Shown: positions 14,752 through 60,016 of the stretch, piece after piece
Layout of the letters: each line of letters opens with the position of its first letter
Position numbering within the stretch: the stretch's first letter is position 1
Assembly: GCF_027364955.1 (NCBI RefSeq)
Contig: NZ_DAHXOI010000002.1
Location: forward strand, 129,600 to 193,599
DNA: 64,000 nt
From: Ferrimicrobium sp.
GTDB taxonomy: Bacteria; Actinomycetota; Acidimicrobiia; Acidimicrobiales; Acidimicrobiaceae
Direction of reading: 5' to 3'
Made by a program: the position numbers and the translations under genes
Notes under the pieces: model-generated
What the model was told of the DNA's origin: nothing
The model's input: the letters and a program-made list of their open reading frames with translations, nothing else
Databases searched by the model: none

Positions 14752-14781
14752 CTAGAGCGCGTAGGGGTTCACGCGCCCTAG
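14752..14781 (-). terminator. Intercistronic hairpin after the Flp-type pilin gene
   Basis: CTAG-A-GCGCGT, 8-base loop, ACGCGC-C-CTAG: a ten-pair stem with one internal A/C mismatch. It lies 18 bp after the pilin stop. There is no U-run, so it may act as an mRNA 3' stabiliser or partial terminator giving more pilin than downstream minor subunits (inference). Confidence 0.5.
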
Positions 14782-14798
14782 TGACTGTTGGCTCGGGG

Positions 14799-15047: not shown

Positions 15048-15095
15048 TATTCACCTCCCTCCCAGAGATACTCGTAATGGATTCTAACTAATCAT

Positions 15096-15111
15096 CTACA
15101 TATAGGTGTCT
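15096..15111 (-). promoter_or_regulatory. Motif A site upstream of the pilin gene
   Basis: Minus strand reads AGACACCTATATGTAG, 49 bp before the pilin start. It shares the CCTATnTnTAG core with the other motif A sites. Confidence 0.45.
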
Positions 15112-15123
15112 GTTCTATTTATG

Positions 15124-19304: not shown

Positions 19305-19305
19305 G

Positions 19306-20019: not shown

Positions 20020-20063
20020 CGCCTACGCAGCCGCCTTTCGTGAATTCAGATCCGGTCGCTACT

Positions 20064-20080
20064 GGTACTACATAGGCACA
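20064..20080 (-). promoter_or_regulatory. Motif A site upstream of cpaB
   Basis: Minus strand TGTGCCTATGTAGTACC, preceded by GAAAAA. It is 45 bp before the cpaB start and just after the stop of the prepilin peptidase gene. Confidence 0.5.
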
Positions 20081-20084
20081 TTTT

Positions 20085-20699
20085 TCAAAAAAGTATGGCC
20101 AGCGCAATAATCCACGAAATTATCGCAGCAATCGCAAGCGCTGGACCGGCGCGGAAGTGCCTGACATGACATAGCTGGAGGGCACTGAGAATGACTACGA
20201 GTATGAGGGCCCACCCCATGAGCGCTACAAGACCGGCAAGAACTGGGAACACTCCGAGCGTCAGCCAGGTTACGCCGATCATCTTCAAATCGCCACCGCC
20301 AGCGCCGCTACGGCCATGGCGCAGGCTCGCAAAGACGATCCAGACCACCGCGATGCAGGTAACGCGGATAGCAGCACCCGGCCAGCCATTCACATCCACC
20401 TGCAACGCGATGGAGGCGAGCGCGGCTGAGGCCATCAGTGCATTGGGAATCGTGCCGGTGCGGGAATCACTGAGCGCACCGAGAACGAAGATCCCACCAG
20501 TGAGACCGAACAAGGCGGCGACCAACCAGGCGTGCGTGACCAATAACACCCCGGTAGCCAACGCTGCGGCAAGGACCACAACCCCCATCAGTCCTACTGC
20601 ACGCACCGGGACCAGGGTGTCGAAGAACCGTTCGTGACCCTGAGGCGACCAGTTTGAAGCGGGCTTCACCTGCAGGACCAACTTCGCATTTCGGTGCAT
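20085..20699 (-). CDS. cpaA: Prepilin peptidase TadV/CpaA
   Basis: 204 residues, polytopic membrane aspartyl protease that removes prepilin leaders. The two catalytic aspartates are visible in DSRTGTIPN (about 78-86) and in GAGGGDLKM (about 131-139, the GxGD motif). Six hydrophobic segments fit the family. The start at 20699 overlaps a motif B site; no ribosome site precedes it, so either the gene is leaderless or starts further inside. Confidence 0.8.
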   Translation of the reverse strand: MHRNAKLVLQVKPASNWSPQGHERFFDTLVPVRAVGLMGVVVLAAALATGVLLVTHAWLVAALFGLTGGIFVLGALSDSRTGTIPNALMASAALASIALQVDVNGWPGAAIRVTCIAVVWIVFASLRHGRSGAGGGDLKMIGVTWLTLGVFPVLAGLVALMGWALILVVILSALQLCHVRHFRAGPALAIAAIISWIIALAILF

Positions 20700-20705
20700 A
20701 CATAC
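20694..20705 (+). promoter_or_regulatory. Motif B half-site upstream of the YdjM-like gene
   Basis: GTGCATACATAC reading toward the plus-strand gene at 20732, 26 bp upstream of its ATG. It also overlaps the cpaA start codon on the other strand. Confidence 0.45.
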
Positions 20706-21554: not shown

Positions 21555-21570
21555 GCGCCTATGTAGTTAG
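21555..21570 (+). promoter_or_regulatory. Motif A site upstream of the replication genes
   Basis: GCGCCTATGTAGTTAG, 85 bp before the start at 21655. It points toward the replication gene pair. Confidence 0.5.
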
Positions 21571-21654
21571 TCATAGTCCCCGTCTCGCTTGAGGCAACGA
21601 CCCGAAAGGAGCAACAGTGCCACTTCACGACTTCTGTCCCCTCAGGGAGGGTTC

Positions 21655-22005
21655 ATGAACCACCCCAAACGCAAATCACTCAAGGACGGCAACGACCAAG
21701 GTTGGGTTGACTATCCACCCCTTTCAGAGAGGGAGTTGTTGAGTCTTCTTGTGCTTCTAGACAAAGCAGACCTGTGGCTTCACTGTGAAGAACACTTGAC
21801 TGCGGGCCTTATGACTCTGGCGGTCCAGACCTATTTGGACATCGATGCACTTACAACAGTTGAGGCCATTGCTGATCAGCCCAGCCGACCCCGTGGTCTG
21901 TGGTCCGCGATCCAGCATGTACGCCAGGAACTTCTTGTGCACCTAGAGCAGCTCGACAAGTCCGAAACACATGATGCGCCTAGCGCACAGGAGGAGGAAC
22001 AATAA
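21655..22005 (+). CDS. Small acidic protein upstream of the replication protein
   Basis: 116 residues, mostly helical and acidic, no recognised domain. The ATG at 21655 has AGGGAGG 4 bases upstream and is preferred to an upstream in-frame start. Its stop overlaps the start of the replication protein (TAATG), so it is translationally coupled to it. A role in replication control is an inference from position only. Confidence 0.6.
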   Translation: MNHPKRKSLKDGNDQGWVDYPPLSERELLSLLVLLDKADLWLHCEEHLTAGLMTLAVQTYLDIDALTTVEAIADQPSRPRGLWSAIQHVRQELLVHLEQLDKSETHDAPSAQEEEQ

Positions 22006-23210: not shown

Positions 23211-23230
23211 GAAAACCGGCCTATGTAGTG
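23211..23230 (+). promoter_or_regulatory. Motif A site upstream of nrdJ
   Basis: GAAAACCGGCCTATGTAGTG, 133 bp before nrdJ. It shares 16 of 17 bases with the site upstream of the pilin-like gene at 42305 (GAAAACCGGCCTATATA). Confidence 0.55.
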
Positions 23231-23303: not shown

Positions 23304-23315
23304 GTGCATACATAT
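23304..23315 (+). promoter_or_regulatory. Motif B half-site upstream of nrdJ
   Basis: GTGCATACATAT, 47 bp before the nrdJ start and reading toward it. Confidence 0.45.
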
Positions 23316-23362: not shown

Positions 23363-26300
23363 ATGTTTGACCGACACTACACGACCAACCGAAATCCTGA
23401 ACTCCAGTGGGAGAAGCGCGATGTCGTGATCACCCGCACCGATGGTACCATCGCGTTTGAGCAGCGCGGAGTAGAAGTCCCCGCAACCTGGTCGAACAAC
23501 GCCACGACCATCCTTGCCCAGAAGTACTTCAGGGGGACCCCTGGCAGTGAGGAACGTGAATCCTCGCTCGCGCAAGTTGTTCACCGAGTTGTGGTTGCAA
23601 TCGGGGCACGGGGTGTCGCAGACGGGTATCTGACGGATGAGAACGAGGTCGGCATCTTCCTCGACGAACTCACGTATGTCCTCACCAACCAGCTTGCATC
23701 CTTTAACTCGCCGGTCTGGTTCAATATCGGTGTTGAGGGAGTTCCCCAGCAGGCATCAGCCTGTTTTATCCTCTCCGTTGGTGACGAGATGGAATCGATT
23801 CTCAATTGGTATCGAGAAGAGGGGCTCATTTTCAAGGGTGGATCCGGCGCAGGTGTAAACCTGTCGGCGATTCGATCATCGGTAGAACTGCTAAAGGGTG
23901 GCGGAACCGCCTCAGGGCCGGTATCGTTCATGCGCGGAGCCGATGCCTCGGCTGGAACCATCAAGTCTGGAGGTAAGACGCGCCGCGCGGCCAAGATGGT
24001 CATCCTCAATGTCGATCATCCTGACATCGAGGAGTTCATCGAAACCAAAGCCAATGAAGAGCGCAAAGCACGAGTCTTGGCTCAAGCGGGTTTCGACATG
24101 GGCATCGACGGTAAGGACATCATCTCGATCCAATACCAGAATGCAAACAACTCAGTTCGTGTCACCGATGAGTTCATGGAGGCTGTTTTCGAAGATGGGA
24201 GTTGGGATCTTCGGAGCGTCACTACTGGTGAGGTGATCAAACAGGTGGCGGCCAAGGATCTCATGCGCAAAATCGCCCAGGCTGCTTGGGGGTGTGCGGA
24301 TCCAGGGATGCAGTACGACTCGACGATCAACCGTTGGCACACCACGCCCAGTGCGGGGAGGATAAACGGATCGAACCCATGCTTCACCGGAGAGACGTTG
24401 GTGGCCACAGCGGACGGGCGCAATGCTGTACGGATAGATGAGCTCGTTGGCACCGACGCCCCCGTCTATGCCAAGGATGCAAAGGGCAACACTGTCATCC
24501 GAACTATGCGCAATGTCCGCATGACGAGAGCTAATGCCGAGATCGTTGAGGTAACACTTGATGATGGTTCTTCGGTGCGCTGCACTCCAGATCACCTATT
24601 TATGCTCAACGATGGCTCGTACATTCCTGTGATCGAGCTACAGCCAGGCGATAGTCTGGAGCGGTTCGACTCCGAACATGAACCGTTCGTCGTAAATCCA
24701 ACTATCCCGGCCAACCATAAGGTTGCATCAATCAAACCGGTTGGACGCGCCGACGTATTCGATGGCGAGGTTGACGAGCTGCATAACTTTGCTATCGTCA
24801 CCTCGGTGTCGGGCGAGATGCGCGCAGCAGCACTCTCGGGGGTATTCGTCCACAACTGTTCGGAGTACATGTCCCTCGACAACTCATCGTGCAACCTTGC
24901 CTCAATCAACCTACTCAAGTTTCTCAATGACGATGGCTCATTCGATGTGGAGTCATTCGTCCACGTGGCGCAACTCATCTACACTGCTCAGGATATCCTC
25001 ATCAACCTCGCTGAGTATCCAACCGGGGCAATCGCAAGAACAACCCACTCCTATCGTCAACTTGGACTCGGTTACTCGAACCTTGGCGCATTGCTGATGA
25101 CACTCGGTCTCCCCTATGATTCGCCGCAGGCTCGACAACTCAGCGCCGTATTAACCGCGCTCATGACCGGTGTTGCATACCGTACAAGCGCTGAGCTTGC
25201 CCGTCAATTGGGGCCATTTCCCGGCTACTCTCAGGATGCCGATGCAGTGCTCCAGGTGCTCGAGATGCACCGCGACGCGCTCACCAAGATCAATGAGAGC
25301 CAGGCACCTGTTGATCTACTCCAAACCGCCCGGGACGTCTGGGATGAGACCCTGACTCTCGCACGCGAGTATGGTGTTCGAAACGCTCAGGCGACGTTGC
25401 TCGCGCCAACAGGCACGATCTCGTTCTTGATGGACTGTGAAACCACAGGAATCGAGCCTGCGTTCTCGCTGGTGACATATAAGAACACTATCGACGGCTC
25501 GACCATGGTGCTTCCACTGCGCTCGGTTCAGGTCGCTCTTGAGCGCTTGGGATACAGTGCTGCCGAACGTGAGAGCATCGCTTCGTTCATTGCGAACGGG
25601 GATGGAGATCTTCTCGCGAGTGGACTGTTGCGCCTCGAGCACGGACCGATCTTTGCCACAGCTGTCGGCACGAATCCCATCTCAGCAATGGGGCATTTAG
25701 AGATGATGGCCGCAGTTCAACCCTTCCTCTCCGGCGCAATCTCAAAGACCGTGAATGTCCCTGAGGACACATCTGTTGAGTTAATCGAGGAGCTCTACAT
25801 CCAAGGGTGGATATTGGGTTTGAAAGCCATCGCAATCTACCGTGACAACTGCAAGGTCGCCCAACCGCTCTCGGGCACCAGCACGGCTGGCGTTGAAGCC
25901 ACCGATGACAACATCTGGCGAGACCTAGCGCTCGAGGCCGAGGGCATCACCACCGCACTCTCTCTGCGCGTCAGAGAACTCGAAGCGATGCTCGACAACC
26001 CAGTGCGTGAACGGCTACCGAGGCAGAGACGATCACGTACCTATGCCTTTGAAGTCGGGGGTGCTGAGGGATACGCAACCGTTGGAGAGTACGACGACGG
26101 ACGGCCTGGTGAGATCTTTGTCAAGATCTCCAAGCAGGGATCGACGATCGCGGGCATCATGGACGCCTTCTCGATCGCAGTTAGCCTTGGGCTTCAACAC
26201 GGGGTTCCCCTAGAGTCCTTTGTGCGAAAGTTCACCAATATGCGTTTTGAACCCGCTGGGATCACCGATGACGCAGAGTTGAGGATCGCATCCAGCCTGG

Positions 26301-26668
26301 TGGACTATCTCTTCCGACGTATCGCACTCGACTACATGGATGCCGATTCACGAGCAGAACATGGCATCCATAGTACGGCTGAACGAGCGGTACACGCAGC
26401 TATCGATGCCCAATCGAGCGAGACTACCCGAGGGACAAGCGCTGGGGGGATAGCAGTACTGACCAAGGCCTTGGGTCAAGAGCCACTGGATGCGATACCA
26501 AAGCCTGCACTTGGGTCAACCGTTCGAGTTGGCTCCGAGACGACACTGAAGGTTTCACCTCAACGGCACGTGGATTCACCGATGTGCTATACCTGTGGAA
26601 CGTCAATGTTGCGGACTGGGAATTGTTATGCCTGCCCTTCGTGTGGCCAAACTTCCGGGTGTTCGTAA
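23363..26668 (+). CDS. nrdJ: Adenosylcobalamin-dependent ribonucleoside-diphosphate reductase with mini-intein
   Basis: 1101-residue precursor, about 942 after intein removal. Class II reductase that reduces ribonucleotides using B12. Visible are FNSPVWFN, SACFILSVGD (substrate-site cysteine), FKGGSGAGVNLSAIRSS, SEYMSLDNSSCNLASINL, LLAPTGTISF and a C-terminal zinc-ribbon/redox tail (MCYTCGTSM ... CYACPSCG). An intein occupies residues 340-498. The start has AAGGACGG about 6 bases upstream. It lies beyond a motif A and a motif B site and stands alone. A cobalamin uptake operon is present at 60429-63942 in the window. Confidence 0.92.
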   Translation: MFDRHYTTNRNPELQWEKRDVVITRTDGTIAFEQRGVEVPATWSNNATTILAQKYFRGTPGSEERESSLAQVVHRVVVAIGARGVADGYLTDENEVGIFLDELTYVLTNQLASFNSPVWFNIGVEGVPQQASACFILSVGDEMESILNWYREEGLIFKGGSGAGVNLSAIRSSVELLKGGGTASGPVSFMRGADASAGTIKSGGKTRRAAKMVILNVDHPDIEEFIETKANEERKARVLAQAGFDMGIDGKDIISIQYQNANNSVRVTDEFMEAVFEDGSWDLRSVTTGEVIKQVAAKDLMRKIAQAAWGCADPGMQYDSTINRWHTTPSAGRINGSNPCFTGETLVATADGRNAVRIDELVGTDAPVYAKDAKGNTVIRTMRNVRMTRANAEIVEVTLDDGSSVRCTPDHLFMLNDGSYIPVIELQPGDSLERFDSEHEPFVVNPTIPANHKVASIKPVGRADVFDGEVDELHNFAIVTSVSGEMRAAALSGVFVHNCSEYMSLDNSSCNLASINLLKFLNDDGSFDVESFVHVAQLIYTAQDILINLAEYPTGAIARTTHSYRQLGLGYSNLGALLMTLGLPYDSPQARQLSAVLTALMTGVAYRTSAELARQLGPFPGYSQDADAVLQVLEMHRDALTKINESQAPVDLLQTARDVWDETLTLAREYGVRNAQATLLAPTGTISFLMDCETTGIEPAFSLVTYKNTIDGSTMVLPLRSVQVALERLGYSAAERESIASFIANGDGDLLASGLLRLEHGPIFATAVGTNPISAMGHLEMMAAVQPFLSGAISKTVNVPEDTSVELIEELYIQGWILGLKAIAIYRDNCKVAQPLSGTSTAGVEATDDNIWRDLALEAEGITTALSLRVRELEAMLDNPVRERLPRQRRSRTYAFEVGGAEGYATVGEYDDGRPGEIFVKISKQGSTIAGIMDAFSIAVSLGLQHGVPLESFVRKFTNMRFEPAGITDDAELRIASSLVDYLFRRIALDYMDADSRAEHGIHSTAERAVHAAIDAQSSETTRGTSAGGIAVLTKALGQEPLDAIPKPALGSTVRVGSETTLKVSPQRHVDSPMCYTCGTSMLRTGNCYACPSCGQTSGCS
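24380..24856 (+). other. Mini-intein within NrdJ
   Basis: 159 residues between NP and CSEYM of the reductase. Block A begins CFTGETLVATADG, block B is VTLDDGSSVRCTPDHLF, block F is VFDGEVDELHNFAIV and block G ends GVFVHN before the +1 cysteine. All splicing residues (Cys1, TxxH-like PDH, His-Asn, Cys+1) are visible. There is no homing endonuclease domain, so it is a splicing-only mini-intein at the well-known nrdJ insertion site. Confidence 0.9.
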
Positions 26669-42032: not shown

Positions 42033-42305
42033 TTAGAGACCCTTTAGCACACTGAAGAGCACGTTCAAGAGCACTGCCCCGATAACGATTCCAGCCCCAG
42101 CCTTCATCGCACGCGTACCCCACTGGGACATCCCTTGAGAGTTGTGCGTGGAGCCAAGACCATGTGCCACCAGTCCAAATAGAAACACCACCGGGCCCAA
42201 GATCAGCACGAAACTATTGAGAAACGTCTGAATTGAGGACATGATGGTGGTGATCTGTCCGGTCCCTGGTAGTGCTCCGATAATCGTTGCCATGATGGAG
42301 GTCAT
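42033..42305 (-). CDS. Small two-helix membrane protein, VirB2-like pilin candidate
   Basis: 90 residues with two hydrophobic segments (about 27-50, FLNSFVLILGPVVFLFGLVA, and 68-88, AGAGIVIGAVLLNVLF) separated by a short polar loop, the size and plan of VirB2/TrbC-like subunits. AAAGGAAG precedes the ATG. It sits between the VirB4-like ATPase gene and the VirB6-like gene, as VirB2/VirB3 genes often do. Motif A lies 26 bp upstream and motif B 68 bp upstream. Confidence 0.55.
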   Translation of the reverse strand: MTSIMATIIGALPGTGQITTIMSSIQTFLNSFVLILGPVVFLFGLVAHGLGSTHNSQGMSQWGTRAMKAGAGIVIGAVLLNVLFSVLKGL

Positions 42306-42330: not shown

Positions 42331-42348
42331 TTATATAGGCCGGTTTTC
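42331..42348 (-). promoter_or_regulatory. Motif A site upstream of the VirB2-like gene
   Basis: Minus strand GAAAACCGGCCTATATAA, 26 bp before the ATG. It is nearly identical to the site upstream of nrdJ at 23211-23230. Confidence 0.55.
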
Positions 42349-42372: not shown

Positions 42373-42384
42373 ATGTATATGCAC
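42373..42384 (-). promoter_or_regulatory. Motif B half-site upstream of the VirB2-like gene
   Basis: Minus strand GTGCATATACAT, between the end of the VirB4-like gene and motif A, reading toward 42305. Confidence 0.45.
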
Positions 42385-42387
42385 GGA

Positions 42388-45081
42388 CTACTCCCATGGC
42401 GAAAAGATCTTCTCGGACGCGAGGATGTTTCGCTTAGCTCCCTGTCGTGTCCCAAGCGCAGCCGTCATGTTCTGGTCGGTGTTGGTGGTCTCTGAATCCG
42501 CGGTCGCGAGCACGCTTCGACAGAGATAGTGGTGGTTCCCTATCAGGCTGAGGAAGAGGCCTCGATAGTTGCCCGATGTCTCTTCTAAGTTGAGAATGCT
42601 CTTCTCAGCGTTCGTGAGTGTAAAGGTCTCACCGATCACCCCGATCTCGTTACCAGAGTTTGAGAAGATGAACGCTGATTGCACCGCATCGATAATCGTC
42701 TGTAGCTTGCCCGCTGTCGCAGTACCGGTGTTCGCAGCTCCTAGCACGTCTGAGAGCCCGTGCATGGTGAGCACGAGTGAGACACCGTAGGAGCGTGAGA
42801 GCTTCGTGGTTGTCTGTAAGAACGCGGCTAGGTTGTCAAGGATTGCCCAACCCTCGTCAACGATCAGGAATGATCGCTGCTCAAGGTGGGAAATCGCGTT
42901 GCGAAGCCAGAATGCCACGACATTTGACACTGGCTTAAAGAGAGCTGGCTCACGGAACACCTCAGACAGATTGATGATCATCCCTTTGGGGTTCACGGTG
43001 ACGGAGGTCTCACCATCAAAGAGTCCTCCGAGCTGGCCTGATCCTAGATATCGTTGTAGTCCTGCTATCACGGGGATCAGGCGCTGAATCGCCTCGGCCT
43101 TGGTTGGTGTACCCATCGCATAGACCAGCTCCGGTGGCACCGCGCGAAGCACATCGATCGCGTCGGCTAACGTCGCACCTTGGCCCAATAACTCCGCTGT
43201 CTTGTCGATCGCTGCTGCTTCGTCAGGACTTAGGTTACGGTCCATGACCGAGGCTGCCAAGATCGATAGCATGGTCGCCTTCGCACTTGGAGTGTCAAGA
43301 TCCAATGGGTTAATCCGGGTCTGGCCCGGTGCGAGCATGAGGTAGGGCAAGTCCAGCTCGCGTGCGGTATCGGCGTATTCACCCTTCGGGTCAAGCGCGA
43401 AGAATCCATACCCATGCACACCTGCGCCCCGGAGTGCCAGCAGTTTCGAGAAGGTCGACTTACCGGTTCCAACCTGACCAAGAACGATCGCAATCGGCGA
43501 GGTGATGATCTGGCGTGCATAGAGTTCAAAGGGATCCCACGAGAATGGAGCACCAGAGAGATCATCGCGTCCAAGAAGAATGCCAGGCACCTGCAGTGGC
43601 GAGGCGATTTGGGCCTGGTACAGTGACTGAGCCTGTCGGGTCGAGATGGTGTGGGTTTCAAAATATGGAGGGATGATCGCCAGTGGCAGTGAGGTAGCCC
43701 AACCCTCGTCATGTCGCCAGTCCGCTCGTCTAAGGCTCAGATAGGACATGCCCGCCTGTCGGTACAACCAGGTCTCGGCCTCATCGATGATCGCTGAACT
43801 ATCAGCGGTGATGGTGATGGTTCCAATCCCTCTGAGGATTGCCTCGCCGGTCGTGAGGTCGGCCTCGGTCTGGCGGGCAGCCTCCATCTCCGCATACTCG
43901 CGCGACATGATGCGTTGAGTACCGCGCCCAGATGCCCGGTTCAACGTCTCCATCTCGACCTTGTTGGCTTCGCGTTCGGCCTGGCGAAGCGCCATCGTTG
44001 GGTCACCCACCGTCCATGTGTAGGAGATCGCGTACCTAGCCACGTTTGCTGGGATGCTCCCCAATAGGTTGAGCTGCCAGGTCTCAGGGACATACATCTG
44101 GGGGAAGTTGTTGATCACATAGGTGCGCGAGACGTGATAGGGCAAAACCATATCAGTCGTAGACGATGCCAAGTTGTACTGCACCGGCACAAGAGAGTTC
44201 AGATCGGGCGCGTAGTAACCGAGCAACAGGCGCAAAAATGCGGTATCGGGGTTCTGTGCTCCACTGATAACCTCGATCAGCTCATCCGAGTCGAGCAATC
44301 GGGCCGCGGACACCACGCCCTTGATGGTCCGATCGATCTGGTCAATCATCGACTTGAGCGCTTCGGTCTCGCCCGAAGCAATCTTTGACAACTCAGTGAC
44401 GAGGTAGCTTCGCCGGTCATAGACCTGATCGCCAACACGCTCGGCTACCTCTCGATACCTTGTGACCAACCCCTGATCGAGATCTGGGTTCTCCTCAATG
44501 AGGCGCCGGAGGATCTCCTTGGGACCGACAGCAGCGGTGACCACGACGTCGGTCAAGAACTGCATCCGCCTCACCGACTGTCCCGCCAGGCTGGCCAATA
44601 GGCGCCCCCACTGGGCGAGCACATTGTGTTGTTCCGCATCTGAGAGGAGCAGTAGGTGGCTGCTGGATGGGATTAGCCACACACCCAGCCATGCAGACCT
44701 CGTTCCTTTCTTGTCGTCATACCACAAGACACCCTCGGTCTGGTTGAGACGGCTGATAGACACTGTTCCAAAAATACCCAGATCCATCTCAACGACTTGG
44801 TTTGCGATTCGGGTCTTGGTCGATGAGGTGCGGGTCCATGAGAACAATGATGTGAACCAAGAAGCTCGCTTGTGAATCAGAATCGTAATCCACTCAGTAA
44901 CAATATGGTGGCGAATCGGGACACTGTTGCCAATGATCAGAGTGCCACCGATCACCAGCTCAAGGGCGAGATTGTGCACCACAGGGATGAGTAAGACGAC
45001 GATGATCGCGGTCAATACGGAGTGGTTTCGGATGAACGGGATCCATGTTGGGGATCTGCGTCTTGGAAATTTTGTGGCCAT
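42388..45081 (-). CDS. VirB4/TraC-like conjugation ATPase (SCO6880-like)
   Basis: 897 residues. Two hydrophobic helices near the N-terminus (about 21-60) as in the actinobacterial SCO6880 proteins, a middle domain, then a P-loop ATPase with Walker A VLGQVGTGKST (about 530-540), FALDPKGEYADTA and the Walker B SFLIVDEGWAIL. It energises pilus or DNA transport. A GTG at 45099 extends the frame, but the ATG at 45081 gives the family-like basic start MATKFPRRRSP; no ribosome site exists because motif A occupies the bases immediately before, suggesting a leaderless transcript. Confidence 0.85.
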   Translation of the reverse strand: MATKFPRRRSPTWIPFIRNHSVLTAIIVVLLIPVVHNLALELVIGGTLIIGNSVPIRHHIVTEWITILIHKRASWFTSLFSWTRTSSTKTRIANQVVEMDLGIFGTVSISRLNQTEGVLWYDDKKGTRSAWLGVWLIPSSSHLLLLSDAEQHNVLAQWGRLLASLAGQSVRRMQFLTDVVVTAAVGPKEILRRLIEENPDLDQGLVTRYREVAERVGDQVYDRRSYLVTELSKIASGETEALKSMIDQIDRTIKGVVSAARLLDSDELIEVISGAQNPDTAFLRLLLGYYAPDLNSLVPVQYNLASSTTDMVLPYHVSRTYVINNFPQMYVPETWQLNLLGSIPANVARYAISYTWTVGDPTMALRQAEREANKVEMETLNRASGRGTQRIMSREYAEMEAARQTEADLTTGEAILRGIGTITITADSSAIIDEAETWLYRQAGMSYLSLRRADWRHDEGWATSLPLAIIPPYFETHTISTRQAQSLYQAQIASPLQVPGILLGRDDLSGAPFSWDPFELYARQIITSPIAIVLGQVGTGKSTFSKLLALRGAGVHGYGFFALDPKGEYADTARELDLPYLMLAPGQTRINPLDLDTPSAKATMLSILAASVMDRNLSPDEAAAIDKTAELLGQGATLADAIDVLRAVPPELVYAMGTPTKAEAIQRLIPVIAGLQRYLGSGQLGGLFDGETSVTVNPKGMIINLSEVFREPALFKPVSNVVAFWLRNAISHLEQRSFLIVDEGWAILDNLAAFLQTTTKLSRSYGVSLVLTMHGLSDVLGAANTGTATAGKLQTIIDAVQSAFIFSNSGNEIGVIGETFTLTNAEKSILNLEETSGNYRGLFLSLIGNHHYLCRSVLATADSETTNTDQNMTAALGTRQGAKRNILASEKIFSPWE

Positions 45082-45082
45082 A

Positions 45083-45101
45083 CCTATATACATAGGCACA
45101 A
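45083..45101 (-). promoter_or_regulatory. Motif A site immediately before the VirB4-like gene
   Basis: Minus strand TTGTGCCTATGTATATAGG ending one base before the ATG at 45081. With the plus-strand site at 45104-45120 it forms an inverted arrangement (ATAGGCACAAAAGTGGCCTAT) serving the two divergent T4SS arms. Confidence 0.55.
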
Positions 45102-45103
45102 AA

Positions 45104-45120
45104 GTGGCCTATTTAGTTGG
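45104..45120 (+). promoter_or_regulatory. Motif A site upstream of the plus-strand T4SS arm
   Basis: GTGGCCTATTTAGTTGG, 16 bp before the start at 45137, mirror-arranged with the VirB4-side copy. Confidence 0.55.
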
Positions 45121-45136: not shown

Positions 45137-46792
45137 GTGGCTGACATGCCAATATTTCGAGTAGATGACTTGGGGTCACTGGTAGAGGAGCTATACCGCT
45201 TCTACCAAAACCTGGGTTATCCCGTCGCTTTTGCCTACATACGGGCCAACGGTTTGTGTGCCTGTGGTGACAGCGGCTGTGCTTTGGACCCCCACCTACT
45301 AGCGGGTGACACGCTCAAAGAGATAGGACGTTCCGGTTCGACAAACCAAGCCTCGCAATTGTCTGTCAGTCCACGACTGGTCATCCAAACCAACTTCACG
45401 GTGGCGACCGAAGGTAGCAGCGTGCTTGGACACATCAAGGACACGGTTAGCGTCCCAATTCTTCGACACGGCAACATCTGCTACCTCTTTGTCCGCGACG
45501 CTAGCGCATTCCCCAACCTTTGGCCAGTCCTTGGCCAACCGAGCATCTCTTGGGTATCGTTGCCCCCCTATCGCAGCGACTCCCCTGCTGGAGGATACGA
45601 CCTGCCCGCATGGTTGGCCCCACTTTCAATTGCTCATGATCAGCTCCCTCTCCTCAATGACCTCCTCCCCCAAAGTGTGTTCTCCCGCATTACCCAAATC
45701 CAGCGAGTAGGCATCGAGGTGCAACAGCGCACCGGTGAAGGAGTGATCCCCCTCGATCAGATTGTGACCTACGCCGCAGAGGAGTTACAGAGGAGTGGAC
45801 AGACTCAAGAGACACTGGCCCTTTTGGGAGCGGCATGCGTTGGTGAACTACTCAGCGTTGGCCAAGCTCATCGACTACTCGGCCACGACACCGATGAGCT
45901 GCGCGTGGCAATTCTTGACACACTCTTCGCCGAGGGCGATATCGCCACGGACGAGCTGATCGAGATCCTCTATGACTCCGCAGTTGCGATGATTATTGAG
46001 AGCGAGGGCATCGACAGCGAGGGCCTCGAGGATGAGGATGCGGACGCAGCCGAAAACGACGCCGAGGCTCAGGAGCTAGAGGGCTCAGTCCACCCTGGAC
46101 CGATGGCCGGCATTGGCGAGCTCAAGGGCAACGACGATTCTGCATCTGTAGCTATCTACGCCGAGAACTACCTCGACGAGCTCATTGAGTCCGATCAATG
46201 GGACGCGGACCCAGACGATATGTCAGTCACAGCCTTAGACTCAGACGCTCTCGATTGGGAGCAGATACTCGATGGAGTCGACCCCGCTACCTTAACCCCG
46301 CTGACACTGGTCGCGATTGTCCTAGATGAGTTGGGGATCTCGCGAGATCCTCTAACGAGTCTTGCTCTCCTTGACATGGCGTTAACAGCCATCTCGGAAC
46401 CTCCCATGCACCCAGACGAGTTGTTTGGCTATCTATGGCCCACACGTCAAGCACTCCTTGGGGAGCTTGAGTTCCATAGCGTAGTTGTACAGCTATTGGC
46501 CGGAATTCTGCTTCGCTTCGAGATGATGTGCGAGGCAGGGACGCTAGTGGCGGATGAGACCTTTCTCGACCAGCTCTTGCACCTCAACACGCCCTCCCTC
46601 GTCTCGGATCTCTTTGGTGCTCCAAACATTGTCTTCTGGCTAGAAAAGCACGTTCTCCAAGCTCCTCTCGTCCAGCTCGATACTCGAATCCACAAGATCG
46701 CCTATGTCCTCGACACGGTGGGCGCACAAATCATCCCCGACGTATCGACTCGGTACTACCTGGATCTCATCAGGGAGAGAATCGATGACTGA
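45137..46792 (+). CDS. Degenerate primase-polymerase-like protein with acidic C-terminal region
   Basis: 551 residues. The first 190 follow the layout of bifunctional primase-polymerase (Prim-Pol) domains: LYRFYQNLGYPVAFAYIRAN, then CACGDSGC, RHGNICYLFVR (cf. TGGGGxHxYFR), and SLPPYRSDSPAGGYD ending in WLAPL (cf. APPSxHPSGxxYxW ... APLPxWL). The catalytic Asp-x-Asp position reads IQTN, so polymerase activity is probably lost. Residues 280-420 are very acidic; helical repeats follow. GTG start with GAGGTGA. First gene of the plus arm, overlapping the sigma-like gene. The fold is an inference from pattern only. Confidence 0.55.
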   Translation: MADMPIFRVDDLGSLVEELYRFYQNLGYPVAFAYIRANGLCACGDSGCALDPHLLAGDTLKEIGRSGSTNQASQLSVSPRLVIQTNFTVATEGSSVLGHIKDTVSVPILRHGNICYLFVRDASAFPNLWPVLGQPSISWVSLPPYRSDSPAGGYDLPAWLAPLSIAHDQLPLLNDLLPQSVFSRITQIQRVGIEVQQRTGEGVIPLDQIVTYAAEELQRSGQTQETLALLGAACVGELLSVGQAHRLLGHDTDELRVAILDTLFAEGDIATDELIEILYDSAVAMIIESEGIDSEGLEDEDADAAENDAEAQELEGSVHPGPMAGIGELKGNDDSASVAIYAENYLDELIESDQWDADPDDMSVTALDSDALDWEQILDGVDPATLTPLTLVAIVLDELGISRDPLTSLALLDMALTAISEPPMHPDELFGYLWPTRQALLGELEFHSVVVQLLAGILLRFEMMCEAGTLVADETFLDQLLHLNTPSLVSDLFGAPNIVFWLEKHVLQAPLVQLDTRIHKIAYVLDTVGAQIIPDVSTRYYLDLIRERIDD

Positions 46793-47849
46793 AGACCTCT
46801 GGCTCGATATCTCCAAAGTCGCTCACGCCTTGGCAACACGACACGATACCGCCTCATACTATCGCCCACAGTACATCACATTGTTACTCGATTCCCTTCT
46901 AGAACCCGAATTCACGAGGCTCGGGCGGGTCATTGCGGATGATCTGTTTGCCGCGATTGAGGCACAATGTGGGACCTCGATCTGTGCCTCGGATCGAGAC
47001 ATGTTCTGGAGTGCATTTGGGGTTGAGCGCTGTGCCCCCGGCGTTGAGGTACTGCAGCGTTCTCGTGCGGCGCGGGGCCTCGACGCATTCCTTGCTGGTT
47101 CATCATTGCCACCCAGTCTTATTGACCGGGTTCGGACGCTACAACAAGCCCAGAATCCCTTCGCAGTCAGAGTACTGCAGATGCACCCTCCTCAGATAAC
47201 TGCGCGGCTATACCGTAACCCATTGGATGCCTACCGCTCCCTGTACGCCCTCTGTGAGTGGAGACTTGCCAAGGAGTCCAAAGAGGTAGAGATATTACAG
47301 AACTGGATAGGGAACGTGATCTACCATCAGGTTTGGTATCGCGTGGTGATCAACCAGATTGACCCGGGTGCAGTAGAGGACATCTCTCAGGATGTCACAT
47401 TGCGCACCCTTGAACAGCTCGCGATCTATCAACCCCAACGCAGAACTTCGCTCTCGAATTGGACCTTCAACATGGTGAATCAATCGATCTCCATGGCGGG
47501 AAGATCCCTGCGACGCGAACGTAATACGGTCGCCTTCTTCACCACGAATCCCGATCGTCTTGGCCCACCAGGCATGAGCTCTGATGAGGCTGCCGAGGTC
47601 GAGGCGGCCGAGCTGGTTGAGTACGCGATGACACGACTGCGCGCATCTGGCTCAACTCTAAACATCGGTGAGCGAATACGTACGTTTGTTGCAGCGATCC
47701 CTCATCTGCTCGGAGGAGAGCCACCACAGAACCTAGAGGAACTCGAGGCCCAGCTACGCCTCTTGTTGCCCAACATTGACTCAGAACACCTATATCGGAT
47801 TGCGGTCCATAGTGGCTTCATCCCCAACACTACCAAAGGATCCTCATGA
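46785..47849 (+). CDS. Sigma-70 region 2-containing protein of the conjugation operon
   Basis: 354 residues. Residues 180-245 look like sigma-70 region 2: VEDISQDVTLRTLEQLAIY followed by RTSLSNWTFNMVNQSISMAG and a basic RSLRRER, matching the core-binding and -10-recognition helices of ECF-type sigma factors. A region 4 helix-turn-helix is not evident in the C-terminal 100 residues. The N-terminal 170 residues are unrecognised. The start at 46785 lies 8 bp before the end of the upstream gene, and the next gene starts with an ATGA overlap. It may be an unusual sigma factor or a sigma-derived regulator. Confidence 0.6.
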   Translation: MTEDLWLDISKVAHALATRHDTASYYRPQYITLLLDSLLEPEFTRLGRVIADDLFAAIEAQCGTSICASDRDMFWSAFGVERCAPGVEVLQRSRAARGLDAFLAGSSLPPSLIDRVRTLQQAQNPFAVRVLQMHPPQITARLYRNPLDAYRSLYALCEWRLAKESKEVEILQNWIGNVIYHQVWYRVVINQIDPGAVEDISQDVTLRTLEQLAIYQPQRRTSLSNWTFNMVNQSISMAGRSLRRERNTVAFFTTNPDRLGPPGMSSDEAAEVEAAELVEYAMTRLRASGSTLNIGERIRTFVAAIPHLLGGEPPQNLEELEAQLRLLLPNIDSEHLYRIAVHSGFIPNTTKGSS

Positions 47850-50221
47850 CCTACTATCTGCGGCTCTATCGAAATGCGATCATCGCGGCGACAATCACCA
47901 TTCTTGTAATGATTGCAGTTCCCAGCGTCACCACCACGGTGGTGAATGATCTACCACCAGCTGTGGCCTCGGTGCTCTTGGGCCACCATGGATATAGCGT
48001 CATCGGCCTCGAGTGCCTAGCTCTCGCCATCGGCGCGCTTATTGTGTGGATGCTGGTTCGAGATCAAGTAGACACGCTCATTGAGTCCGATATGGATGAG
48101 ACTGCAGTTAGCGTCTACCGCGATATCCGAGACAGAGGGATCGCTCCGGCAATCGCCCAGCAGGTTGTGGACGCGAACGCCAACATGGACCAAGATGCAC
48201 GAGCCCACGACTGGCAACAGGCGAATCAACCCAGCTTCGCTGCTGAATTAGGGTATCGGCTCGGCGTTGACGGTGAGACGCGCAAGATGATGCGCGAGTT
48301 TTTTCACAACAGTGGAGCGGAGGCCGACATGCGTCGCACCTTCTCAACATCCCTGGAGGTAACGCTCGAGAACGGCAACATCCACAAGTCACACACCACC
48401 GATGCGACCATTGAGCCAGCATCACGCTTTCGTCCAGTTAACCCCGAACGAGACCCGCACTGGACGGGTGACGTCGCACCTGAGCTCGTTAAGGCCAAGA
48501 TCTTTACTGATTGGAACGAGGCGTCGGTGCCCAACAATGAGGTCATCGCGCCAGAGCCAACATCTGGGACACCCGGCGTCGCAACTGACGACGAACTAGG
48601 TGATGACACCCCAGACAACGAGTCATCTGATGACGAGGAAGAGGACGCCGAGCCCACAGAGTGCACCGAACCCGAGGTAGCAGCGGAACCCACAGAGGGC
48701 ACCGAGCCCGAGGTCCTGTTCGATGACGAGACTGACTTGCGAGCTCTTGAGCTGGAACCAGATGCACCAGGAGATGAGGAAGATATCACACTCGTAAACG
48801 ATGGCCCTTGTTTGGTCGAGAGTGATGACGAGGTGGACCAGGATATCCGAGAGGTGGGTACGCCTGGGTCCCAAGAGGTTCTATTTTCTCAGACCATTGA
48901 GGCTGTTGCACTCGAGCCCACAATCGTGGACCTTGAGCCCAGTGATGGTGACGAGCTAGGTGATGTTGAGACTGGTGATGTTGAGACTGGTGACGATACT
49001 ACGGGTCTAGATGTGGCCACCCAGGTCGATCGGGAGACAGAGGCACTCTATGCCTCGGTTGAGAATGACCCCGTCATCGCAGGACTTGTCGAGTCGATGA
49101 AGCTCACCCGCCGCTTGAGCGCTACGGACCAGATCCGATACGTCTATGCCTACTACGCGAGCGATCAAGCCTTGCTAGTCACTGAGCTCCGAGAACCGCT
49201 AGCGGTCCATGTTGATCGGTTCTCGCCCACGATGGTGCCACTGGCGGTTCAAGCAGGCGTGAGGCGCTGTCGGACTGTCTCGTGGATTGTTGATATCACG
49301 AGTAGCGCAAGTCGCGAGGCCGATCTGTCGGCGATTGTTTGGGTGCCGGTTGGGATTACTCGGCTTGGGGATGCTGGTAACCATACTGCCTGGAAGCTAG
49401 TGCCAGTGGCTTCGGGATCCACACGTTCCTTTCACGTCGGGCGTGACCATGCTGCATTGGCTGCGGTTCGCCTGGAGCGGGTGTTGGGTACCGTCTACAA
49501 CGACTGTGAGGTCGGCCAGGATGGGGCCTCAATGTTCTATACCATCCCCAGTCTTGGCGTGACTATCGAACTGAACGTGGACTCAGAACTCGAACCAACA
49601 GATGAGGACGTCATCCACACAGATGCCGATTATGTGCAGGGTCCTGTGCTGCCGGTGATCTACGATGTCCCACTGCTGGCTGACATGGCACGCACTTGGA
49701 TTGGGGAACGGCTCGGGGGATCCACTCTCGAAGTCAGCGACTGGTTGGCGCTCGTGAACATGATTACCACGCTCATCATGCGTATCGAACCAGTGCCATC
49801 GCGAGACTTACTTGGACAGTGGGCTGGACCCGATAGTGAGCGTGGAAAGGATCTCATCGCCAAGCTCGAGCGCATCTTTGGCGATGCTTTGAGCGGCGAC
49901 GCTAGCGGGTGGATGTTATCAAACGTTCGCTGTGATGTGCTCTGGCTCCAAGAACTTCTCTCCCCAACAGAGACTCGCCCCGACATCGCCGATCTGCTCA
50001 CACACTTTGTCATCAATACGTTCCGTCCTGGCTATTCTCAATCTCTACTGAGCCTGGGTGCCCTGGATCCGCGGATGCGAAGCACCGATGGCATCCGGCT
50101 TGAGCAGATCATCAAGGACGTCCTGGATGTGACGCTCGATCTGTTGAGTCCAGGTGCTGAGGGAGTCCTACGAGAACATCTCAACGCGATCGCAGCAATG
50201 CTTGGGAAGGAGCAGGTGTGA
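47846..50221 (+). CDS. Large acidic membrane-anchored protein of the conjugation operon
   Basis: 791 residues. Two N-terminal helices (about 10-30 and 47-70), then a long cytoplasmic part with a strongly acidic, repetitive region at about 230-400 (DDEEEDAEPTE, repeats of EPTEGTEPEV and GDVETGD). The C-terminal 390 residues appear folded but are unrecognised. Its position directly before the coupling protein (GTGA overlap) suggests it is a membrane partner of that ATPase or of the channel (inference). Confidence 0.65.
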   Translation: MTYYLRLYRNAIIAATITILVMIAVPSVTTTVVNDLPPAVASVLLGHHGYSVIGLECLALAIGALIVWMLVRDQVDTLIESDMDETAVSVYRDIRDRGIAPAIAQQVVDANANMDQDARAHDWQQANQPSFAAELGYRLGVDGETRKMMREFFHNSGAEADMRRTFSTSLEVTLENGNIHKSHTTDATIEPASRFRPVNPERDPHWTGDVAPELVKAKIFTDWNEASVPNNEVIAPEPTSGTPGVATDDELGDDTPDNESSDDEEEDAEPTECTEPEVAAEPTEGTEPEVLFDDETDLRALELEPDAPGDEEDITLVNDGPCLVESDDEVDQDIREVGTPGSQEVLFSQTIEAVALEPTIVDLEPSDGDELGDVETGDVETGDDTTGLDVATQVDRETEALYASVENDPVIAGLVESMKLTRRLSATDQIRYVYAYYASDQALLVTELREPLAVHVDRFSPTMVPLAVQAGVRRCRTVSWIVDITSSASREADLSAIVWVPVGITRLGDAGNHTAWKLVPVASGSTRSFHVGRDHAALAAVRLERVLGTVYNDCEVGQDGASMFYTIPSLGVTIELNVDSELEPTDEDVIHTDADYVQGPVLPVIYDVPLLADMARTWIGERLGGSTLEVSDWLALVNMITTLIMRIEPVPSRDLLGQWAGPDSERGKDLIAKLERIFGDALSGDASGWMLSNVRCDVLWLQELLSPTETRPDIADLLTHFVINTFRPGYSQSLLSLGALDPRMRSTDGIRLEQIIKDVLDVTLDLLSPGAEGVLREHLNAIAAMLGKEQV

Positions 50222-52620
50222 GCGCAACCAATCACGAAAGTGGCGTGCCAGCAGTCGTAGTCCTTGGCGGACTTGGCTTATCTCTCGTCGCGGGACTGTG
50301 GGTCGCCATGAAAGCCGTGAGCGCAATCTGGGGACCGGTGGATATGACATTTGCCAAGTTCTTGGCGACTCTGTGGCTGGTGCACTCTAGCGTGGTCTAT
50401 CGAACACACCAGCTGCTCCCCAATCCCCTGCTCTGGCGGGTGAGCGCCACAGCGATAGCTCTTCTCGTCTTTGGTGCGGGGATGGTGAGCCTGCTCGTGG
50501 GTATTCACCTCTTCCAATCAGTTGGATCGGGTTCCAAACTCTTTGGCTCTCGGTCCGCCCTTGACAAGAGATCCGATGATCCGGCGAGGTGGTTGCCCTT
50601 TGACTCGCGCAAGTACAAGCCCTTCAGCCCAGCCGAGGTCGTCCAACAAGACCAGGTCCACCCCAGTGGAACGACAATACCCGTTGGCGAGCGATGCTTA
50701 GACAGCTACGGTTTCATGCTCGGTTACGCACGCGATAACCCCGAGGACCCGATCGCAATCTCCTCCGAACTCTCGATGCTCCTCGCAGGAGAGGCACGAT
50801 CAGGCAAGACCATGGGGTTTGTGATCCCTTGGGTGTCACAATGGCTGGGTCCTATCATCACGACCAGTACCCGTGTAGAGGTGATCCGGGCAACCCTGCT
50901 CGCGCGCCGGCGTGTCTCGGATCACATCTATGTGCTCACCCTGCCAGGGGTGCAGATCCCGGAGGGAGTACAGCCGATCAGCTATGACATCTGCTGGTTC
51001 TACAATGAGGAACTCGACTCCCTCGTAGAGTCAGCTGAACGAAGGGCCGCTATCTTTGCCGCAGTCGCTGGCGACTCGAACCAACCGGTCTGGGAGAATG
51101 CAACGAAACAGATCTTCGCGTGTCTCTTGTTGATCGGCTTCGCCTGGCGATACGCCCAGGTGGAATTTCTTGGCAAGGACATCGCATCGGCAAAACCGAG
51201 CCTTGGAAGCGACGACCCAAAGACCCACCACATCGACATGCTGAAGAAATTCGCGAATCTCGAGTGGACCCGGACAAAGGAGAAGGTCGATACGGTGACG
51301 GAGTTCCTCAAAGCCAACATCCCAAACGGGAGAGGAGTACATGCTGGATCATACGTTGCAAGCGTCGCTCAGACCTTCCAGGGCAACGCTGGCAATACCG
51401 AGTTTGCCCAGACAATCACCGGCATGATCGCCGTTGCCTTAGGAAAGCTCAACGACCCCCAGGTGGCCGCCGTCTTTTCTACCCGCTGGGATCAGCCGGT
51501 GTTTGACCCTGAGACATTCTTGGCTGAATCTGGAACGCTGTATCTCATATCGCGCAGTGAGGATTCCACCGATCTCGCCAAGTTCTTCAGCCTTGTGGTG
51601 AACGAAGTCGCAGCCGCAGCACGAAGACGAGCGAGTCGCATGAGTCGATGCGATCCAGGGCTTGCCCTCATACTCGATGAGATCGCCAACATCGCTCCCC
51701 TCCCCAATCTCAGCACCTACATGTCCGAGGGTGGAGGTAACGGCATCACTACTGTTGCGGTGGTGCAAAACCTGCGCCAATTGATCACGCTCTATGGTGA
51801 GGGTAAGGGTAAAGAGATCATCTCGAGTGCCAACGTCATCGCGACCTTTGGCGGTTCCAAAGCTAGGGAAGACCTAGAGATGTTCTCCGAACTCGCGGGA
51901 CGCAGCACAGTCCAGGTGTCGAGCTATGACAAGAGCGGCAACATCACTGGGCGTAGTGACTCCACAGAGGCCGCTATCGACCCAAACCGAATTGCCAACA
52001 TGCCCCGGGGTTGGATTTACCTGAAGCTGCCAAACTCAGACCCGATACTTGTCAAGACATTCCACTGGGCAGGTGAGCCTGCACGCGTTTGGAGCGCACA
52101 CCCTTTCAAGGCACTCAAGTGGTCCCGAGAATGGGGACAATCACTGGGTGATGAAGGGTCCAGCTTCCCTTTCCACGGTACCAACCGGTCCCTCAGTTGG
52201 CGTGCAATTCATGACCTCACCCTCGAATCCAATGGACTCAGCCTCCATCCTCTCCAAGTGGAGATCAGCGCAAATCTCGGACTGGGCGACAAAGGAGGGC
52301 CCAAAACATCACAAGAAGACAGCGAAGAATCGGAGCCGCGAACGAGAAGGCACCGGGGAGAGGCAGTCCAAGACCTCCGTCCTAGCGACAGCAAGCCTAC
52401 ATCTGCGCCTGGACCTACACCACCGGCGGATATGGATATGCGACCCGCCCGACGTCTGGAAAACACGCCTACATCCCAAGTGAATACCCCACACAACCGT
52501 GGTGACAAGTTGGCACGGCTACGACAGCAGATGATCGACAACGCCGGCAAACGCTGGACCGCCAACGACGAGGATATGGACATCCTATTTAGAGAGGTAC
52601 CCGATGACACTGACGCCTGA
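50218..52620 (+). CDS. VirD4/TraG-family type IV coupling protein
   Basis: 800 residues. Two to three N-terminal helices, Walker A LLAGEARSGKTMGF (about 190-200), Walker B LALILDEIANI (about 482-492), and the C-terminal TraG/TraD box with VAVVQNLRQLI and NVIATFGGSKA. It would recruit the DNA-relaxase complex to the secretion channel. The last 120 residues are basic, disordered and Pro-rich. GTG start with AAGGAG, overlapping the preceding stop. Confidence 0.88.
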   Translation: MSATNHESGVPAVVVLGGLGLSLVAGLWVAMKAVSAIWGPVDMTFAKFLATLWLVHSSVVYRTHQLLPNPLLWRVSATAIALLVFGAGMVSLLVGIHLFQSVGSGSKLFGSRSALDKRSDDPARWLPFDSRKYKPFSPAEVVQQDQVHPSGTTIPVGERCLDSYGFMLGYARDNPEDPIAISSELSMLLAGEARSGKTMGFVIPWVSQWLGPIITTSTRVEVIRATLLARRRVSDHIYVLTLPGVQIPEGVQPISYDICWFYNEELDSLVESAERRAAIFAAVAGDSNQPVWENATKQIFACLLLIGFAWRYAQVEFLGKDIASAKPSLGSDDPKTHHIDMLKKFANLEWTRTKEKVDTVTEFLKANIPNGRGVHAGSYVASVAQTFQGNAGNTEFAQTITGMIAVALGKLNDPQVAAVFSTRWDQPVFDPETFLAESGTLYLISRSEDSTDLAKFFSLVVNEVAAAARRRASRMSRCDPGLALILDEIANIAPLPNLSTYMSEGGGNGITTVAVVQNLRQLITLYGEGKGKEIISSANVIATFGGSKAREDLEMFSELAGRSTVQVSSYDKSGNITGRSDSTEAAIDPNRIANMPRGWIYLKLPNSDPILVKTFHWAGEPARVWSAHPFKALKWSREWGQSLGDEGSSFPFHGTNRSLSWRAIHDLTLESNGLSLHPLQVEISANLGLGDKGGPKTSQEDSEESEPRTRRHRGEAVQDLRPSDSKPTSAPGPTPPADMDMRPARRLENTPTSQVNTPHNRGDKLARLRQQMIDNAGKRWTANDEDMDILFREVPDDTDA

Positions 52621-53080
52621 GGACAACCAATTCACAGCGATCGAGGCACCGCTGACCTTCCTAGCACTACGAGGATCTCTTGTATCGCAGCGACGGGTAG
52701 CTGAACAACTTGGGATGACCGACTTACTCGGCGAGATTGACCCGCTCTTAGCCGAGACCGAGGCTGCTACTCGTACCCTCTTGCTAAAGACACCGATGCC
52801 AGATGATGAGTATTTGGATCCGATCTTCGACGAGGAGTTCCTCGCCCTGTGCCAGCTGATGGGGGTCAACGTTCTCGCTTGGGTGAATCAGCCTCAGATT
52901 CTTGCGCGACTGCGCGACCCTGACGCCATCCTATCGAGGTGGGTCGCGACCGCCGCGTGGAACGCGGATGGTGTTGATGCCGCGGCTGAATCCACGATCT
53001 CATATTCAGAGAGTATCGCAGAGGTTAAGGGGGCTATTCATGCACTCTTCCGGATCCTTCTTGATAGCGGTCTTATATAG
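52604..53080 (+). CDS. Small acidic protein at the end of the conjugation operon
   Basis: 158 residues, helical and acidic, no recognised domain. It starts 17 bp before the end of the coupling-protein gene with GAGAGG upstream and ends the plus-strand chain of overlapping genes. Possibly an accessory or chaperone for the coupling protein (inference). Confidence 0.6.
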   Translation: MTLTPEDNQFTAIEAPLTFLALRGSLVSQRRVAEQLGMTDLLGEIDPLLAETEAATRTLLLKTPMPDDEYLDPIFDEEFLALCQLMGVNVLAWVNQPQILARLRDPDAILSRWVATAAWNADGVDAAAESTISYSESIAEVKGAIHALFRILLDSGLI

Positions 53081-53154
53081 GTTTCGTATGTCCTCTGTTT
53101 AAGTAACGCATACTCTCATACCGATAGATACTGTGAGGCATCACGAGGTATGGT

Positions 53155-53952
53155 ATGGGAACTGCATGTGACGATGAGGCAATCGCGCTAATTCAATCAC
53201 TACAAGCTGGGGATCAAGAGTCTTTCCCGGAACTTATGGAGATTCTGAAACCCATGGTGGAGTATGCCGTGTGGCAGTTCACTCACGGGAGTGTGCGCTA
53301 TGCTGATGACCTCTTACAAGAAGCATGGATTGGCGTTTACAAAGCCGCACAGCGCTATGACACAATTGCCTATCCGCATTTGCTCAAAACCTATTTCCGA
53401 ACTGCAATCATCAATCAGCTCGTGCTCGCCGATTCCCAAACAGCCGATTCATTGGCCCCACCAAGGGCTATCGCACGGTTCCAGCGCGATGCTGTCAAAG
53501 GACACGTCGACTGGTCCCAATCTAACGAGGAGATCCACCGCTCATACCCACAAGTCAACCTCGTCGAAATTGAACGGGTCCGCACGTTTGGTGGTTGTTC
53601 CGTCACCTGCATGAGCAATTTCCCTGAGGTGTACGACTCACTCACCGGTAAATACTCTGACGCCCCAGCGTTCGACGAGTGGGCAACCACTCGGGTTGAC
53701 ATTGAGCAGATCCTCACCGAGGTCAGGGCACAGGTTAGTCCTATACACTACCGTGTCTTTGAGCTACGATTCTTGCAGGACTTGAGTCGGCCAAGCGTGG
53801 CCAGGATGTTAGGGCTGAGCGTTGTTCGTGTCTATACGCTTGAACGCCAACTGCTCGCAACGCAATTTCTCGTTCGCTATACAGAGTCCAGCGCCCCGAC
53901 TCCAGAGACGCTGCGTTCGCTGTTGGCACAAACCCTCTCTGCAACTGCTTGA
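53155..53952 (+). CDS. Sigma-70-like (ECF-type) transcription factor
   Basis: 265 residues with region 2 (about 25-90: ADDLLQEAWIGVYKAAQRYD then YFRTAIINQLVLAD) and region 4 (about 195-240: HYRVFELRFLQDLSRPSVAR, MLGLSVVRVYTLERQ). An unusually long, roughly 100-residue insert separates them. It lies 74 bp after the T4SS operon and appears to have its own promoter region. It could direct RNA polymerase to the motif A or motif B sites found before the element's genes; this is a hypothesis. Confidence 0.7.
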   Translation: MGTACDDEAIALIQSLQAGDQESFPELMEILKPMVEYAVWQFTHGSVRYADDLLQEAWIGVYKAAQRYDTIAYPHLLKTYFRTAIINQLVLADSQTADSLAPPRAIARFQRDAVKGHVDWSQSNEEIHRSYPQVNLVEIERVRTFGGCSVTCMSNFPEVYDSLTGKYSDAPAFDEWATTRVDIEQILTEVRAQVSPIHYRVFELRFLQDLSRPSVARMLGLSVVRVYTLERQLLATQFLVRYTESSAPTPETLRSLLAQTLSATA

Positions 53953-54630: not shown

Positions 54631-54644
54631 TAGCTCTTCACATG

Positions 54645-54674
54645 ATGTATATGCTCCGCGCGGTGCATATACAT
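54645..54674. promoter_or_regulatory. 30-bp palindrome of two motif B half-sites (divergent operator/promoter)
   Basis: ATGTATATGC - T - CCGCGCGG - T - GCATATACAT, perfect except for the T/T pairs flanking the centre. It lies between divergent genes and ends 5 bp before the plus-strand ATG at 54680. Both half-sites read outward toward a gene. Confidence 0.7.
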
Positions 54675-60004: not shown

Positions 60005-60016
60005 ATGTATATGCAT
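60005..60016 (-). promoter_or_regulatory. Motif B half-site before ardC
   Basis: Minus strand ATGCATATACAT, four bases before the ardC ATG. It occupies the same position as the half-site before the gene at 54680. Confidence 0.55.

Follow-up and report, generated by a model that had tools for sequence, protein, structure and literature searches.

Sigma-like genes and two promoter-like motif classes in a putative integrative conjugative element of a Ferrimicrobium-type bacterium

Does a conjugative element of an acidophilic actinobacterial host bring along the sigma factors that read its own promoters? Conjugative elements are usually described as using host sigma factors plus added repressors or activators, and some phages and viruses switch on their genes with a transcription programme of their own, independent of host promoter recognition. 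The question is raised by a stretch of 64,000 nucleotides from a Ferrimicrobium-type member of the Acidimicrobiia (hereafter the window; C2:129600-193599 of its own genome, 3.08 Mb in 84 contigs), in which an initial annotation had described two sigma-like proteins, here called sig1 and sig2, among conjugation genes preceded by recurrent promoter-like motifs. We compared the window with a relative of the same genus (G006) and with two distant relatives (G033 and G035).

We consider it probable that the window holds a portion of an integrative conjugative element with sigma factors of its own (three sigma-like proteins in all) and two classes of promoters for them. What we observed are the sigma domains, a conserved gene module, two promoter-like classes and the nearly exclusive placement of these in the element. 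The idea, put forward in the initial annotation, that transfer has a transcription programme of its own is strengthened by these sequence comparisons and is extended by a third sigma-like gene, sig3, located on another contig, C11, and by several signs belonging to the same element.

Three sigma-like genes and the element that carries them

In sig2 we observed region 2 over the cut-off (PF04542, 8.9e-7, residues 29-88), region 4 under the cut-off (PF04545, 1.9e-3, residues 194-232) and a TIGR02937 match spanning residues 25-235 (1.4e-13, 50.8 bits, over the cut-off). The two sigma-like proteins had been regarded as structurally unusual, sig2 because its regions 2 and 4 are split by about 100 residues. 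There is indeed a gap of some 105 residues; however, when sig2 and two relatives were combined into a profile, this aligned end to end with six group-3-type sigma factors (hhalign probability 96.5%, 207 columns) and with nine group-1/3 sigma factors (97.6%, 219 columns), covering region 4 and taking in residues 93-165 (region 3); five unrelated element families of the window, used as a control, scored at most 0.5%. Since the alignment runs from end to end, the intervening residues are, as judged from profiles, region 3, and sig2 has the ordinary layout of a group-3 factor, leaving only sig1 as an unusual protein. This region 3 is a distant one, as the isolated residues gave no match to Pfam region 3. 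An assignment of sig2 to the extracytoplasmic function (ECF) or split sigma factors was rejected, with about 105 residues between its regions and a best ECF profile match that covers region 4 only.

Among PDB sequences sig2 has relatives that are sigma factors, the first being a SigF-type chain at 5e-9, and in IMG/VR we found one weak match (L048) over 57 residues. A single-sequence model of sig2 (predicted local distance difference test, pLDDT, 48), whose best structural rows were not sigma factors, was uninformative and was counted neither way. In its regions 2, 3 and 4 sig2 is like the group-3 factors FliA, WhiG, SigB and SigF; it differs from them in reaching no group-3 NCBIfam cut-off, in its promoter sequence and in being borne by a mobile element.

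For sig1, the description of a region 2 with no evident region 4 held in every sequence scanned. Pfam Sigma70_r2 matched the window protein with E=1.1e-4 (22.4 bits, just under the 24-bit cut-off) and its relatives, scanned singly, with 4.6e-6 (26.8 bits, over the cut-off) and 1.3e-3 in G033 and 1.8e-3 in G006, and no Pfam match to region 4 was obtained in any of the four. The N-terminal 145 and the C-terminal 100 residues belong to no known family; the C-terminal parts of the four sequences have no Pfam match, and a structural model gives four helices there (pLDDT 58-79). The gene is also, as annotated, locked into its operon, overlapping the upstream gene (which ends at 46792) by 8 nucleotides and the downstream gene (which starts at 47846) by 4 nucleotides; the G033 copies keep a 4-nucleotide overlap with the upstream gene.

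A search for sig1 in 60 genomes, including its own, matched five of them, namely its own, G006, G033, G035 and G049; the last match, short and at 33% identity, was taken for a generic region 2. In 395 genomes of the class only its own genome was matched, the known carriers not being part of that draw. We found no match in PLSDB plasmids, INPHARED phages or IMG/VR, and nothing relevant among PDB sequences. A short peptide pattern searched in genome contigs gave four loci, on the contigs already known from G006, G033 and G035.

The transfer module in which both sig1 and sig2 are located recurs in three other genomes (G006, G033 and G035), with sig1 occurring twice in G033. By tblastn, the order of the window, VirB4 back to back with g45137 and then sig1-g47846-VirD4-g52604-sig2, was found in pieces in G033 and G035 and partly in G006, and the module proteins of G033 and G035 are 28-67% identical to those of the window.

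The third gene, sig3, contains region 2 (1.4e-5, over the cut-off) and aligns with group-1/3 sigma factors (hhalign probability 97.6%). C11 also encodes a TrwC relaxase that is 57% identical to the relaxase of G033; three further TrwC relaxases are located elsewhere in the same genome. In addition, 46 bp of the 3' end of a tRNA-Gln adjoining a tyrosine integrase gene on C2 are repeated exactly on C11 near 81989. An integrase next to a tRNA, direct repeats as ends, a relaxase, VirD4 and VirB4 are all found, as in an integrative conjugative element, with C2 and C11 unjoined in the assembly, and we infer that the C2 and C11 parts belong to one element. Directly left of the window, beside reverse-transcriptase-like open reading frames (judged by eye), there is a run of 139 N bases (C2:129461-129599), and the scaffold join to the chromosomal genes on that side may be false.

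Two classes of promoter-like sites

The initial annotation names its two motifs without giving their sequences; we took them to be the two that recur ahead of element operons, GCCTATDTA (motif A) and TGCATAYAYA (motif B). Of the looser matches in the window, four out of ten for CCTATNTA and three out of eight for TGCATA[CTG]A were dropped. In the window there are six copies of motif A, each ahead of an operon start. The units concerned are VirB4, sm and ribonucleotide reductase, together with the sig1 and Tad-like operons and the replication cluster. The stricter form GCCTATDTARK has five sites in the 3.08-Mb genome, all five in the window; the reversed pattern also has five. There are 2, 1, 6, 0 and 2 matches in G001-G005, genomes of the same genus without sig1, and seven in G006, three of which stand at orthologues of element genes (VirB4, g45137 and sm).

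At these three starts G033 has CCACCAGA-N11-GCRTAAATA instead, which is bipartite, unlike motif A of the window. A pattern built from them, CACCAG-N11-14-GYRTAWATA, gave six sites in G033 and four in G035, with none in either genome for the reversed control. The five operons that these sites precede correspond to those of the window; new sites found with the pattern stand in front of the Tad-like operon in both genomes and of a cluster with the replication homologue, in this case about 1.2 kb upstream of the homologue with two further open reading frames between. The spacing is N11 in nine of the ten. It should be noted that the G033 and G035 sequences are close to each other, so that orthologous sites there are not independent. 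With an 8-nucleotide -35, N11 and a GC-extended -10, the class A of these genomes has the geometry of the sigma-28 type, for which excerpts of one source give the consensus TAAAGTTT-n11-GCCGATAA (PMC2859248).

With the bipartite promoter, VirB4 and g45137 start 7 nucleotides after TAAATA, and the ATG of the window VirB4 stands 7 nucleotides after TATGTA, so that these mRNAs would be leaderless. The alignment and the position of the promoter also make ATG 45081 the likely true start of VirB4. The window copies of motif A for VirB4 and the sig1 operon (45079-45117) are back to back and 9 bp apart, so the promoters overlap, and the corresponding sites of G033 are about 100 bp apart.

Motif B occurs at five sites in the window. 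In the whole genome GTGCATAYAYA was found 12 times on two contigs only, with four sites in the window, one at C2:194407 and seven on C11, and the reversed control gave none. The counterpart in G033 and G035, recognized at the g54680/g53992 pair, is CGCGCATATGTATAAG, which with up to two mismatches matched seven times in G033 and six times in G035 (control, 0 and 1). Ten of these 13 matches were read and three were left out; the ATG lies 6 nucleotides after TATGTA in eight of the ten, and CATCTTTG is placed exactly N5 upstream in six. These sites precede, among others, a TrwC relaxase gene (twice), a ParA-type gene, a sigma gene, ribonucleotide reductase and the g54680/g53992 pair. The sigma gene is the G033 relative of sig3, and sig3 itself begins directly after the class-B-like GTGCATATAGA. 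The annotated motifs thus proved to be element-wide and promoter-like, having bipartite orthologues in G033 and G035 and strict forms confined, or nearly so, to the element.

A possible transcription programme for transfer and its alternatives

In the mechanism that we propose, sig2 would associate with the core RNA polymerase of the host and recognize element promoters that have a GC-extended -10, and sig1, made within the class-A transfer operon, would be either a second sigma factor recognizing the -10 only or a modulator of sig2. The reader of class A (transfer, pilus and replication) would be sig2, sig1 or both, and sig3 would read class B (relaxase, sig3, ArdC and others). The location of sig1 inside a class-A operon and of sig3 behind a class-B site suggests positive feedback, as for SigN, and both sigma/promoter loops may be self-amplifying. 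If this is true, the whole transfer programme could be switched without reliance on host promoter recognition, in the manner of phages. The orthologous operons with lineage-specific promoters readily lend themselves to testing whether sigma factors and promoters co-evolve.

A mobile element with its own sigma factor is already known. Part of the work on SigN (ZpdN) of the Bacillus subtilis plasmid pBS32 describes an element-encoded sigma factor with its regulon on that element and self-activation (PMC6751061). It was the only close case that we found in the open-access PMC literature on element-encoded sigma factors in conjugation, a weak negative in that scope, and in part of a review of the regulation of Gram-positive conjugation the host sigma factor is the only kind mentioned (PMC6540685). 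The present case differs in that SigN is a single firmicute sigma factor linked to DNA-damage cell death, whereas here there are three sigma-like genes and two promoter classes, with transfer and pilus operons. This precedent nevertheless supports a more ordinary explanation, in which a single plasmid-type sigma factor, sig2, has a small regulon and sig1 is a decaying paralogue. We regard it as improbable, since three lineages retain sig1 and its overlaps, at about 32% identity and free of stop codons, which decay would not permit, and since a third sigma gene is present.

Several observations weigh against the proposed programme. Because the window was where the motifs were first spotted, the counts initially made of them are post hoc. 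The other four motif-A matches of G006 are at no orthologue of a window gene, one looking promoter-like and three not, and one class-A site of G033 (L060:7049), with N12 spacing, lies antisense within a neighbour gene. Neither motif is clearly present at the promoter of sig2 itself. A conserved -35 for motif A of the window was rejected, as the best shared hexamer was equalled by 42 of 200 shuffles, and the motif-A pair between VirB4 and g45137 (45089-45115) is an imperfect palindrome, also compatible with an operator. With the mirrored motif B at 54640-54673, these last two points would fit motifs A and B being operators bound by a repressor or an activator that the element encodes, with the -10 role left to the host main sigma factor and with sig1 and sig2 serving otherwise. 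We think this unlikely, given that most sites are single, oriented copies, that the distance from TATRYA or TAAATA to the start codon is a constant 5-7 nucleotides at the leaderless genes of both lineages and that the -35/-10 spacing is fixed in G033 and G035.

The role of sig1 is less certain, and there is only slightly less than an even chance that it is an anti-sigma, a co-sigma or a structural protein with a retained region-2-like fold rather than a sigma factor. Its apparent lack of region 4, its two large non-sigma parts and its translational coupling amid conjugation genes agree with this, as do its weak alignments with sigma profiles (hhalign 43% with ECF and 2-6% with group 1/3). The AlphaFold2 model of sig1, built from a five-row alignment, has low confidence (pLDDT 53.2) and no Foldseek match at E 0.001 or better; its residues 144-249 superpose on sigma region-2 domains (VIA-align), with sigma entries, gp55 included, in all 50 rows shown and a best Z of 11.8, although Z below about 13 can arise by chance for helical folds. 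What speaks for a sigma factor is the D-h-x-Q-D/E pattern of region 2.2, which contacts core polymerase and is preserved in all four rows of the sig1 alignment that cover that stretch.

As a region-2-type protein with no apparent region 4, sig1 is like the late sigma factor gp55 of phage T4, from which it differs in being larger; the model aligned with the gp55 chain 7d7c_F (Z 9.8, 118 residues, root-mean-square deviation 5.5), but many ordinary sigma chains scored equally or higher. A bolder version of the proposed programme, which we hold to be rather doubtful, is a phage-like cascade in which sig3 and class B would act early (relaxase, ArdC and sig3) and sig2 with sig1 and class A late (secretion channel, Tad-like pilus and replication), sig1 being the first gp55-like, -10-only sigma factor in a conjugative element.

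Features of the window and further genes of the element

The window encodes a VirB4-like ATPase (SCO6880 family), a VirD4-like coupling protein, ArdC (start 60000; ArdcN domain, 2.1e-28), a T2SSE-type ATPase in a Tad-like set and a replication-type protein. The features discussed are collected in Table 1.

Table 1. Positions of the genes and promoter-like motifs (window numbering unless a contig is given)
Feature	Position	Strand	Remark
g45137, first gene of sig1 operon	45137..46792	+	no family
sig1	46785..47849	+	354 amino acids; sigma region 2 (about residues 144-249), 145-residue helical N-terminal part, C-terminal four-helix part
g47846, conserved operon gene	47846..50221	+	no family
VirD4/TraG-like coupling protein	50218..52620	+	PF02534 6e-25
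g52604, small conserved gene between VirD4 and sig2	52604..53080	+	
sig2, group-3-type sigma factor	53155..53952	+	265 amino acids; regions 2, 3, 4
VirB4-like ATPase (SCO6880 family)	42388..45081	-	NF042935 70.4 bits, over cut-off
sm, small membrane protein gene	42033..42305	-	first of type IV secretion system membrane operon
Motif A before sig1 operon	45107..45115	+	kept in G006
Motif A before VirB4	45089..45097	-	TATGTA 7 nt ahead of ATG 45081; kept in G006
Motif A before sm	42332..42340	-	kept in G006
Motif A before Tad-like operon (20019 to about 13000)	20069..20077	-	G033 promoter at same operon
Motif A before replication cluster (21589-23195)	21557..21565	+	
Motif A before ribonucleotide reductase	23219..23227	+	
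Motif B before sm	42374..42383	-	tandem with motif A; kept in G006
Motif B before membrane protein gene near 20732	20695..20704	+	
Motif B before ribonucleotide reductase	23305..23314	+	
Motif B before g54680	54664..54673	+	TATACA 6 nt ahead of ATG 54680; mirror copy facing opposite gene at about 54645; G033 counterpart
Motif B before ArdC	60006..60015	-	directly before start 60000
sig3, third sigma-like gene	C11:73992-74912		40% relative of G033 sigma gene behind class B
Tyrosine integrase	C2:198641-199777		
tRNA-Gln	C2:199896-199971		adjoins integrase

The Tad-like secretion/pilus set (13006-20699) comprises the T2SSE ATPase, a prepilin peptidase-like protein and a SAF-domain protein. Being under a motif-A promoter, it is possibly the mating pilus of the element. 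The element also carries, behind both motif classes, a class II ribonucleotide reductase (23363-26668) with an intein-like insertion at about residues 338-477 (Intein_splicing 6.1e-8, just under the cut-off) that is absent in its G035 relative. In G033, an AbiEii-type toxin gene and a winged-helix partner sit between g52604 and sig2 (L041:3144-4600), and in one of the two copies an OrfB/TnpB-type gene splits the operon between sig1 and g47846 (L040:8846-10315).

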